NCBI GenBank assembly: GCA_900541465.1
Contig: UQJY01000025.1
Span: forward strand, 1 to 13,705
DNA from: an uncultured Fusobacterium sp.
GTDB taxonomy: Bacteria; Fusobacteriota; Fusobacteriia; Fusobacteriales; Fusobacteriaceae
Direction: 5' to 3'
DNA: 13,705 bases
Below are positions 12,561-13,705 of the stretch, piece after piece (the stretch's first letter is position 1; every line of letters begins with the position of its first letter). A program made the translations under genes and the position numbers. The notes beneath the pieces were generated by a model, which saw only the letters and a program-made list of their open reading frames with translations, did not search any database and was not told where the DNA came from.

Positions 12561-12587
12561 AAAGAACCGCTGAGACGGTTCTTTTTT
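12561..12587. terminator. Bidirectional terminator between csp and the 194-aa gene
   Basis: The nine-pair stem AAAGAACCG (12561-12569) with CGGTTCTTT (12576-12584) closes the loop CTGAGA. T residues 12582-12587 follow on the plus strand. The plus-strand T-tract overlaps the stop codon (12586-12588) of the convergent minus-strand gene, and the hairpin can serve that transcript too. Confidence 0.9.
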
Positions 12588-13170
12588 ATTTTTGGGTTAT
12601 TTTTCTTTCTGTCACTTTTAATCTTTCTAAATTCATTTTTGAAAATCTGTCATTTCTGTCTACTAAAAGAGAAACAGGAACACATATTTTTTTATTATTT
12701 TTTATTTCTTTTACTGCAAGATATACAAGGATTGATATTTTATCTGTTTTTAGAAGAAAAGAAAATTCTATTTTACTGTTCCAGATTATATTTATATCAT
12801 ATTTTAAGGCTGTATCTACATTTTCAAGAAGAGTTCTTAATACCGGAAAATATGTTAATCTGTCTTTAAGCTCTAAAGTAAATGTTTTTGGTTCAAGTAT
12901 CATAATATTTTTTAAATTAATTTTTTCTTTTAGTATATCTTCATTTATTTCTTTTGCTTTTTTATTTTTATTAATAGTTTTAAAATACTGCAGACCTAAT
13001 AAATGTGAAAAGTTTTCTTCTGCAAATGATATTTCTATCTCTGTATTATCTTCAAAAGTATATTTATAAAAATAAGGACATACAAAATCTCTATAAAATT
13101 CAAAATATTCTTTAAAATCTACTTGTGATAAAGATATCTTTTTAAAACTATTTAAAAATTTATGCTCCAT
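12586..13170 (-). CDS. PBECR4-like (nuclease-fold) protein, function unknown
   Basis: The 194-residue soluble protein has no signal peptide or membrane segment. Recognisable features are a central YKYTFEDNTEIEISFAEENF (36-55) followed at once by SHLLGLQYF (55-63), a KDRLTYFPVLRTLLEN helix (102-117), and alternating beta strands to the end. An acidic-aromatic strand pair leading into HLLGL, then a helix with an RLxYF-type core, is what I associate with the PBECR4 family, phage-linked nuclease-like domains of the barnase-EndoU-colicin-RelE fold. I recall the pattern only and have not matched it. H56 would be the candidate catalytic or structural histidine. The ATG follows TAGGAGAAAGTA. There is no separate promoter in the 22 bases between it and the upstream terminator, so transcription probably depends on read-through from the RNA at 13193-13379. 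Its partner and activity are unknown. Confidence 0.6.
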   Translation of the reverse strand: MEHKFLNSFKKISLSQVDFKEYFEFYRDFVCPYFYKYTFEDNTEIEISFAEENFSHLLGLQYFKTINKNKKAKEINEDILKEKINLKNIMILEPKTFTLELKDRLTYFPVLRTLLENVDTALKYDINIIWNSKIEFSFLLKTDKISILVYLAVKEIKNNKKICVPVSLLVDRNDRFSKMNLERLKVTERKITQK

Positions 13171-13192
13171 TACTTTCTCCTAAAATCATTAT

Positions 13193-13234
13193 AAAAAAAG
13201 TCCTAAACTTTTTTATAAAAAGCAGGACTTTTTT
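13193..13234 (-). terminator. Intrinsic terminator of the structured RNA
   Basis: AAAAAAGTCCT pairs with AGGACTTTTTT (arms 13224-13234 and 13194-13204), with a nested CTTTTT/AAAAAG hairpin inside the loop. The minus-strand transcript ends in seven U residues only 22 bases before the start codon of the 194-residue gene, so it can act as an attenuator. The symmetric A/T tracts would also allow plus-strand termination. Confidence 0.8.
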
Positions 13235-13379
13235 ATCATTACAGTGGGATATCTTTTTTATTGTTTTCCCTCAACACTAATCTCAGTATGTGAAAGCCCC
13301 TGAGTGGGTTCTCGCCCTGTAATCAAGCAATACCACCGTTCTCCTTATTCTCAAACGGTCGAGATTTCAACTATTTTAT
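13193..13379 (-). ncRNA. Unidentified structured RNA or attenuator leader
   Basis: A transcript of about 187 nt is bounded by a promoter (13386-13414) and a terminator (13193-13234). This interval is clearly richer in G+C than the surrounding spacer. Local structures include ACCGTT/AACGGT around a loop holding AAGGAG, GGG/CCC around CGAGAA, CTCAG/CTGAG, and a long-range ATTACAG/CTGTAAT pair. The CAGGGC segment could alternatively pair with GTCCTG of the terminator, giving an antiterminator. A 17-codon reading frame (13283-13336, GTG start) follows the AAGGAG. It may be a 6S-like independent small RNA or a riboswitch or attenuation leader of the 194-residue gene. I could not match it to a known RNA family. 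The ends are predicted. Confidence 0.55.
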
Positions 13380-13385
13380 ATTAAC

Positions 13386-13414
13386 ATTATACCTTTTTTG
13401 CCAAAAAAAGTAAA
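13386..13414 (-). promoter_or_regulatory. Promoter of the structured RNA
   Basis: On the minus strand TTTACT (13409-13414) and a perfect TATAAT (13386-13391) are 17 bases apart. Transcription would begin near 13379. It is the only good promoter upstream of the 194-residue gene. Confidence 0.75.
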
Positions 13415-13436
13415 TTTATAATTTCTCCAAAAAAAT

Positions 13437-13476
13437 AAAAAAGACAAGGTGTTAATTGGCGTTTACCCTCGTCTTT
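13437..13476 (-). terminator. Intrinsic terminator of the candidate antitoxin RNA
   Basis: A stem of 10 pairs (one G-U), extended by two more after a one-base bulge, closes a loop of about 11 bases. U-tracts of six and seven residues follow (13442-13437 and 13435-13429 in minus-strand order). Confidence 0.8.
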
Positions 13477-13499
13477 CTTATTTGCCTTTTTTTCTTTTA

Positions 13500-13516
13500 A
13501 AAAAATTCTTTTTTGT
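13500..13516 (+). repeat. Direct repeat, copy 1 (small-RNA 5' end)
   Basis: AAAAAATTCTTTTTTGT is identical to 13615-13631. This copy lies at the 5' end of the minus-strand small RNA, so the repeat makes that RNA complementary to the peptide mRNA. The sequence is low in complexity, but the match runs for 17 bases through TTC and GT. Confidence 0.8.
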
Positions 13517-13522
13517 ATCTCT

Positions 13523-13551
13523 ATTGTATCATAGATTTTATTTGTTTTCAA
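13523..13551 (-). promoter_or_regulatory. Promoter of candidate antitoxin RNA
   Basis: On the minus strand TTGAAA (13546-13551), a 17-base spacer ending in TGA, and TACAAT (13523-13528) give a strong promoter with an extended -10. It is one of the best promoters in the window, as expected if the RNA must be in excess. Confidence 0.8.
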
Positions 13552-13560
13552 TGTTATAAT
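13552..13560 (+). promoter_or_regulatory. Extended -10 promoter of small peptide gene
   Basis: TGT-TATAAT is a perfect extended -10 element with no clear -35 box. The predicted start is near 13567, giving a 45-base leader. It lies back to back with the small-RNA promoter, whose -35 hexamer ends one base before it, so the two may compete for polymerase. Confidence 0.65.
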
Positions 13561-13611
13561 ATTTCTGCCTGATATTTCTTCCTTAAAGCCAACTGTAAAG
13601 GAGGTGATAAG

Positions 13612-13680
13612 GTGAAAAAATTCTTTTTTGTTTTAATGATGATAATAATATTTCTGTTATTATCTAAAAAAGTATATTAG
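13612..13680 (+). CDS. Small hydrophobic peptide, candidate type I toxin
   Basis: The gene encodes 22 residues, MKKFFFVLMMIIIFLLLSKK followed by VY: two lysines, a single membrane-spanning segment (4-17), then SKKVY. This charged-hydrophobic-charged plan is like Ibs, Fst and other membrane toxins of type I systems. The Ibs peptides similarly begin MK or MMK and end in LLxS...Y, though this may be convergence. The frame is far too short to trust alone. The support is its ribosome binding site, AAAGGAGGTGAT (13597-13608), a 12-base match to the 16S rRNA 3' tail, placed seven bases (from GGAGG) before the GTG start, together with its own promoter. A divergent small RNA with complementarity to the start region lies next to it. 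The GTG start and RNA pairing would keep synthesis low. The window ends 25 bases later, so the mRNA 3' end is not visible. Confidence 0.55.
   Translation: MKKFFFVLMMIIIFLLLSKKVY
13615..13631 (+). repeat. Direct repeat, copy 2 (peptide codons 2-7)
   Basis: This is the second copy of AAAAAATTCTTTTTTGT, directly after the GTG start codon of the small peptide. The preceding nine bases GATAAGGTG (13606-13614) also match GACAAGGTG at 13443-13451 in eight of nine positions. Both blocks of the peptide start region are therefore duplicated, collinearly, in the small-RNA gene. Confidence 0.75.
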
Positions 13681-13705
13681 TCTCTGACTATATAATTTTT
13701 ATGTG

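Follow-up and report, generated by a model that had tools for sequence, protein, structure and literature searches.

Two kinds of described systems come closest to the locus presented here, one in the way its RNAs pair and the other in the arrangement of its genes. In the par locus of plasmid pAD1 (Fst/RNAII), toxin mRNA and antitoxin RNA are described as meeting through kissing terminator loops and through two direct repeats whose pairing sequesters the start site, with a hairpin at the Shine-Dalgarno (SD) sequence, and they are produced from convergent promoters with one shared bidirectional terminator (PMC7472228). Divergent gene order is instead represented by TisB/IstR-1, ZorO/OrzO, ShoB/OhsC and DinQ/AgrB of E. 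coli, whose antitoxins are described as pairing in a long 5' UTR, away from the initiation site and the coding sequence (PMC4147584). In the Ibs/Sib pair, Sib is reported to overlap the entire ibs coding region (PMC3919570). According to one recent account, type I systems were previously known only from Proteobacteria, Firmicutes and Tenericutes, with cyanobacteria added in 2025 (PMC12390103).

For Fusobacterium, the titles and abstract openings of the literature searched, a set that leaves subscription papers such as T1TAdb outside its scope, contain no RNA-antitoxin system. In the sections consulted, a transcriptome paper on F. nucleatum mentions 'antitoxin' four times, always for putative YwqK-family or similar protein genes (PMC11005410), and a protein paper on the same species applies 'type I' to RelB, which is of another kind because RelB is a protein antitoxin (PMC10326533). 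HrgC has been described, speculatively, as a type I-like membrane toxin in a paper on Helicobacter, which also gives a homologue from Fusobacterium and, in the parts examined, names no RNA antitoxin for HrgC (PMC4615327); the description of plasmid pFN3 names 11 ORFs, and 'antitoxin' is absent from its main text (PMC1924603). A divergent layout with Fst-like pairing was not met in the literature searched.

The locus lies at the end of the stretch of DNA analysed (13,705 nucleotides; the window), and its sequence makes it very probable that it is a type I toxin-antitoxin module whose divergent layout is new, with a candidate toxin gene and a predicted antitoxin RNA. The sequence shows the ORF, its expression signals, complementary blocks that are specific to each locus and a coding-type pattern of conservation. 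By the same kind of evidence, the module is one member of a Fusobacterium family carried by plasmids and chromosomes, from which 15 loci were compared (the window, L002, L017, L003, L004, L007, L010, L016, L008, L009, L011, L012, L013, L015 and L018), with the near-copies L005, L006, L014 and L021 excluded from the count. The features of the window locus are the following.

13612..13680, + strand: candidate toxin ORF, hydrophobic, 22 codons, GTG start, VKKFFFVLMMIIIFLLLSKKVY (from the ORF and the alignment of relatives)
13597..13608, + strand: 12-base SD sequence AAAGGAGGTGAT, predicted to be paired in the mRNA 5' hairpin
13552..13560, + strand: putative toxin promoter, extended -10 TGTTATAAT without a clear -35, matching the family-wide TGNTATAAT
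13523..13551, - strand: putative antitoxin RNA promoter TTGAAA-17-TACAAT, 10/12 consensus letters, TG before the -10
13433..13516, - strand (13516->13433): predicted antitoxin RNA, about 84 nt (from promoter position, terminator and folding)
13436..13480, - strand: predicted intrinsic terminator of the antitoxin RNA, hairpin followed by T-rich sequence
13456..13461, - strand: antitoxin terminator loop TTGGCG (sense view), from family-wide loop sharing
13500..13516, - strand: block A, RNA side (5' end), 17/17 repeat
13615..13631, + strand: block A, mRNA side, codons 2-7, 17/17 repeat
13472..13487, - strand: candidate block B, RNA side, weak in the window, TCTTTCTTATTTGCCT (sense view), overlapping the terminator 5' arm
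13566..13590, + strand: block B, mRNA 5' end, weak, with candidates TGCCT at 13566-13570 or TCTTCCTTA..GCC at 13577-13590

The window is most likely a chromosomal stretch of Fusobacterium or a close relative because of the identities of its proteins to those of an F. vincentii record. Among the 12 window proteins compared, acyl-CoA dehydrogenase is 86% identical, EtfB and a cold-shock protein 76% each, thiolase 68%, an ABC ATPase 63%, EtfA 62%, other efflux proteins 33-49% and xylulokinase 23%; two of the 12 have no match at 1e-5. Next to the module, on the - strand, a second putative RNA (13190-13410; promoter TTTACT-17-TATAAT at 13414..13386) lies upstream of a 194-aa ORF (12586-13170, - strand). 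Its core is relatively rich in G+C, its folding has a z of -2.6 and it contains a hairpin with a T-run after it; it has no Rfam match over threshold, and 13190-13420 has no convincing homologue in F. vincentii, where the best match (E 0.003) is a terminator. The product of the ORF carries a PBECR4 (PF18813) nuclease-like domain (E 2.5e-16) and has no F. vincentii match.

On the toxin side, the hydrophobic 22-codon frame and its 12-base SD, with which the original prediction began, are both present; a small hydrophobic peptide gene of this kind is expected of a type I system. AAAGGAGGTGAT is taken to match the 3' end of the 16S rRNA over its full length. The toxin mRNA is predicted to start at about 13566-13568, and its terminator lies past the window end (13705); TGNTATAAT has a best match of 8/8 in 15/15 loci, ending 47-56 nt upstream of the start codon. 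In folding predictions the probability that the SD is unpaired is 0.05 in the window and 0.01-0.40 across the 15 loci, which suggests that it tends to be hidden by folding of the toxin mRNA; such folding alone could silence the ribosome-binding site, without the antitoxin RNA.

The divergent, promoted and terminated RNA that had also been proposed is predicted with a near-consensus promoter, a strong terminator and a length of about 84 nt. Its promoter is by itself weak evidence, because shuffled sequences yield similar counts of promoter-like sites (10 observed against 6.7 +- 2.8). Its predicted start, 13516, falls 7 nt past the -10, just where the 17-base block has its edge, and the RNA from 13516 to 13433 has a folding energy of -21.1 kcal/mol (z -5.6). 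A simple terminator scan of the window returned 0 sites, probably because it limited loops to at most 8, and Rfam has nothing at gathering scores in the window (at E<=5, 15 matches in 13150-13705, all far below those scores). Across the family, the predicted antitoxin RNAs measure about 60-85 nt, each with an intrinsic terminator, and the pairing of the terminator stem is kept through two-sided changes at 6/12 pairs (13 RNAs). The antitoxin promoter stands at the expected place in 18/19 loci with 9-12 of 12 consensus letters, as picked by a best-of-stretch search that for L015 chose a site elsewhere.

The 17-of-17 repeat between the two genes is likewise present (13500-13516 and 13615-13631). 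Its score of 17 was reached by 0/3000 dinucleotide shuffles of the upstream stretch; since the sequence is of low complexity, the best shuffle scored as high as 16.5, and because shuffles nearly match it the repeat alone is modest evidence.

When 13430-13700 was compared with plasmid records by blastn, 41 records matched at E<=1. At least half of the query was covered by nine plasmids from Fusobacterium, with E values between 2e-9 and 1e-4, and by one uncultured plasmid; the other matches listed were short. With relatives as queries, 34, 19 and 30 records matched, 30, 16 and 27 of them from Fusobacterium. The relatives are located on Fusobacterium plasmids, on one chromosome-sized F. vincentii record and on three uncultured plasmids. 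The F. vincentii record (NZ_CP084075.1, 2.1 Mb), the only one in which chromosomal spread was gauged, contains two clear module copies, and family members make up only 2 of its 19 SD-led hydrophobic small ORFs; it is listed as plasmid pSB055A and resembles the F. vincentii chromosome. Blastn with L009 returned four records, of which one is L009 and three are weak matches in Clostridioides (E 0.07). Several searches yielded no further members: tblastn with the 22-aa window peptide gave no match, a scan of genome contigs for two proteins from the neighbourhood brought up no locus from Fusobacterium, and in viral contigs two pattern searches were empty and the 23 stretches from a third lack any SD-led small hydrophobic ORF by the filter used. 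In a phage collection the best match covers 23% of the query for the window and 18% for L003. A protein from one HG79* plasmid matches plasmid replication proteins, the best matches listed being from Bacillus at 36-38%.

Seven further records were run through one script and form a weak hold-out, as they are mostly close relatives of loci already counted (L157 and L158 encode the L015 peptide, L161 and L162 that of L014, and L159 is close to L013), L163 being the only clearly new locus. Six of the seven have a toxin, an 8/8 TGNTATAAT, a block A score of 11.5-14 and a block B score of 6-10, and L160 has the RNA gene and no toxin. Shared terminator loops were called automatically in 4 of the 6 toxin-bearing records; for L161 and L162 the script took the terminator of a neighbouring RNA, and by eye the own loops of L161 are both TTGGAG. 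L019 and the examined stretch of L020 contain no family toxin, although the L020 record carries one across its origin. Plasmid pSB012A has two module copies with the same toxin peptide (L198, 3488 and 13191), and L203 has at 216 an MKKAFII-type variant toxin without the SKNV stretch, perhaps an inactive copy.

The 15 candidate toxin peptides, aligned, have 19-32 residues and a common plan, in which the N-terminus is mostly basic, the hydrophobic span comes next and the end reads roughly K-[NKS]-x-[Y/S]. Among eight relatives of the 22-codon group, differences at the three codon positions number 168/44/224 over 28 pairs, which are non-independent, with L003-L006 close to each other; the protection of second positions is a sign of a hydrophobic coding sequence. 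Pfam contains Fst, Ldr and Ibs models, the Ibs peptides being about 19 residues long. No family in Pfam, NCBIfam or PADLOC was over cut-off for the peptides given. For seven family peptides searched against Pfam at E<=10, nothing was over cut-off (0 families for the window peptide); among the rows below it are the GhoT/OrtT toxin (15.1 of 22.1 bits, E 0.028) and, at E 0.27, a colicin lysis protein, and neither Fst nor Ldr has a row.

To what extent the two RNAs of a locus fit each other was assessed by scoring each toxin against its own and against the other loci's antitoxin stretches, with permutations. Short blocks match in the 15 loci, in most of them spelled in letters of their own. Block A, between the 5' part of the RNA and toxin codons ~2-8, has an own mean of 12.9 against a cross mean of 6.7 (0/100,000 permutations), and the own score is the strict row maximum in 12/15 loci; in the exceptions L003 scores lower than with L013 (13 vs 15), L004 ties with L003 and L010 ties with L016. 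It is weaker in L018 (10.0) and in L010 and L016 (9 each). Block B, between the RNA segment before the terminator and the mRNA 5' end, has means of 8.7 and 6.7 (0/100,000 permutations). In the window its score of 6.5 is the joint lowest of the 15, with L002, and is at background (cross mean 6.7), the best match lying away from the mRNA 5' end; in L015 the best match (7) lies in the terminator loop instead. Without the window and the near-duplicate L004 (n=13), both blocks still give 0/100,000. When the first 50 nt of each RNA are paired with the mRNAs by RNAduplex, the own mean is -23.9 against -14.2 kcal/mol, and the own partner is lowest or tied for 15/15 mRNAs. The predicted antitoxin RNAs would thus be complementary to their toxin mRNAs.

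A third contact, beyond the two of the original prediction, is suggested by the terminator loops (block C). The two loops of a locus have 6-10 letters in common in 13/13 loci with both terminators, with nine loop types (0/100,000 permutations), five of the 13 loci sharing TTCCAG; left out are the window, where the sequence ends, and L018, whose 320 inspected nt contain no toxin terminator that could be recognised. The loop strings were entered by hand, some with one or more flanking stem bases, and the hairpins of L010 (toxin side), L009 and L016 (RNA side), for which the script ranked another first or none, may be match-biased because they were chosen by eye. For the window, the family pattern predicts TTGGCG in the toxin terminator loop just past 13705.

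The second contact of the original prediction was placed elsewhere, in the 3' arm of the terminator, which was to cover the start codon. The match itself, GACAAGGTG at 13443-13451 against GATAAGGTG at 13606-13614, is present in the window, with nine pairs including one G-U (-11.3 kcal/mol). Over the 15 loci, matches of this type show a slight excess of own over swapped partners (219/20,000 permutations), yet the effect is small (own mean 5.2 vs cross 4.6), so that the block is not established, and pairing would require the terminator stem to open. This contact is therefore an unlikely one for the window locus, and block B, at the mRNA 5' end, is better conserved in the family. The wider claim, of a type I-like divergent module with Fst-like repeat logic, is borne out by the 15 loci, in which the blocks are kept despite changes of their letters.

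From these features we infer transcription, an order of pairing, a block of translation, toxicity and addiction. A strong promoter would produce the short antitoxin RNA, and the extended -10 promoter back to back with it the toxin mRNA. The complementary terminator loops would make the first, kissing contact, after which the RNA 5' part would pair with toxin codons 2-8 and the segment before the terminator with the mRNA 5' end. Pairing would clamp the ribosome-binding site, already within the 5' hairpin, and so prevent translation. If unrepressed, the product may be a single-span membrane peptide that depolarises or damages the membrane, and plasmid copies could act as addiction modules.

This scheme shares with Fst/RNAII a small hydrophobic peptide and the occurrence of both plasmid and chromosomal copies (as described in PMC7472228), complementary terminator loops (in the 13 of 15 loci with both terminators), direct repeats at two further sites around the start, of which only block A is clear in the window, and a predicted intramolecular hairpin over the SD. 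Unlike Fst/RNAII, the Fusobacterium genes diverge, each with its own terminator and with matching loops, and seven family peptides match no Fst model. The divergent E. coli systems resemble the family in gene order, in short complementarity (18-21 nt there) and, for OrzO, in the use of the antitoxin 5' end (as reported in PMC3919570), whereas in Fusobacterium it is codons ~2-8 that hold block A, and the loops of the two terminators match. With Ibs/Sib the family has a very short hydrophobic peptide in common, but no Ibs model is matched by the seven peptides of at least 22 residues (two 19-residue peptides, too short, were excluded).

Antitoxin RNAs also occur apart from toxins. A covariance model (R1), built from 13 RNAs and run on 24 whole plasmids and the window, gave 56 matches at E<=0.05. 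A score of 42 bits or more is reached by 36 of them, spread over 21/24 plasmids; the other 20 are 19 opposite-strand echoes of the same hairpins and one paired RNA (L217, 32 bits). The window RNA went undetected at E<=0.05, and the three uncultured plasmids have no RNA at 42 bits. By the ORF filter, 23 of the 36 RNAs adjoin a divergent toxin and 13 are orphans, on eight plasmids (two each in L209, L204, L202, L210 and L211; one each in L206, L207 and L197); because many are near-copies, they amount to three sequence classes, two of which fit toxins carried by other plasmids, and should not be counted as 13 independent cases. One class, of seven RNAs, matches TTGAACAGACTA, which holds the start codon and codons 2-4 of MNRL toxins (A 12-13, B 10.5-12.5); the RNAs that belong to these toxins use codons 4-9. 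A second, of five, fits the MRKPIFQ toxin with A scores of 11.5-18.5 and a B score of 6, which is background. The L197 orphan matches its own resident toxin and others (A 12, B 11). In a shuffle control of 7 of the 13 orphans (best of 19 toxins, 300 shuffles each), the A+B score was reached by 0 shuffles for L209b, L197o, L202_2, L210_1 and L206o, by 1 for L209a and by 4 for L202_1, and the block A score alone by 0-7 of 300. In L210 and L211 the orphan continues, by eye, into about 35 nt of the MRKPIFQ toxin's coding sequence, identical but for one mismatch, which is what a deletion between the direct repeats would leave. Orphan repertoires, partly arranged in tandem arrays, might neutralise the peptide toxins of rival plasmids, as an RNA-based form of anti-addiction or plasmid competition, a tentative reading to which the alternative, that orphans are remnants of modules that lost their toxin by such deletions, is equal or better.

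Tandem arrays of three antitoxin RNA genes with a single toxin also occur (L012 801-1090 and L161 800-1080; plasmids pSB012B and pFh1249-1). A 'hypothetical protein' on the - strand that overlaps antitoxin RNAs in L012 (943-1125, CP056012) and L014 (847-1029) is probably spurious.

That the RNA controls a non-toxic small membrane peptide (a signal, a membrane modulator or a leader peptide) is improbable: short hydrophobic peptides are not all toxic and chromosomal copies occur, but the frequency on plasmids, the strongly promoted antisense RNA and the orphan RNAs would better fit a toxin. That the repeats act on DNA, as operators, recombination sites or gene conversion tracts, with no antitoxin RNA at all, is hardly credible. 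Direct repeats do flank both promoters and vary in length, and L210 and L211 look, by eye, like products of deletion between such repeats; but each of the separate blocks finds its match at an RNA-specific position, the loops of the terminators agree where the stems around them differ (as in L007), antitoxin promoters are near consensus and terminator stems compensate on both sides (6/12 pairs, 13 RNAs).

A type I module thus remains the preferred reading of the window locus. The genes of such modules bear no annotation in the plasmid records examined, among them the two copies on NZ_LN831028.1, which like pFN3 is 11,934 bp long. The family would indicate that divergent genes with duplicated terminator loops can arrive at a pairing logic like that of Fst, and its many natural pairs, cognate and non-cognate, could serve to test RNA recognition. 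As a covarying family in Fusobacteriota, it would add a phylum to the type I systems.
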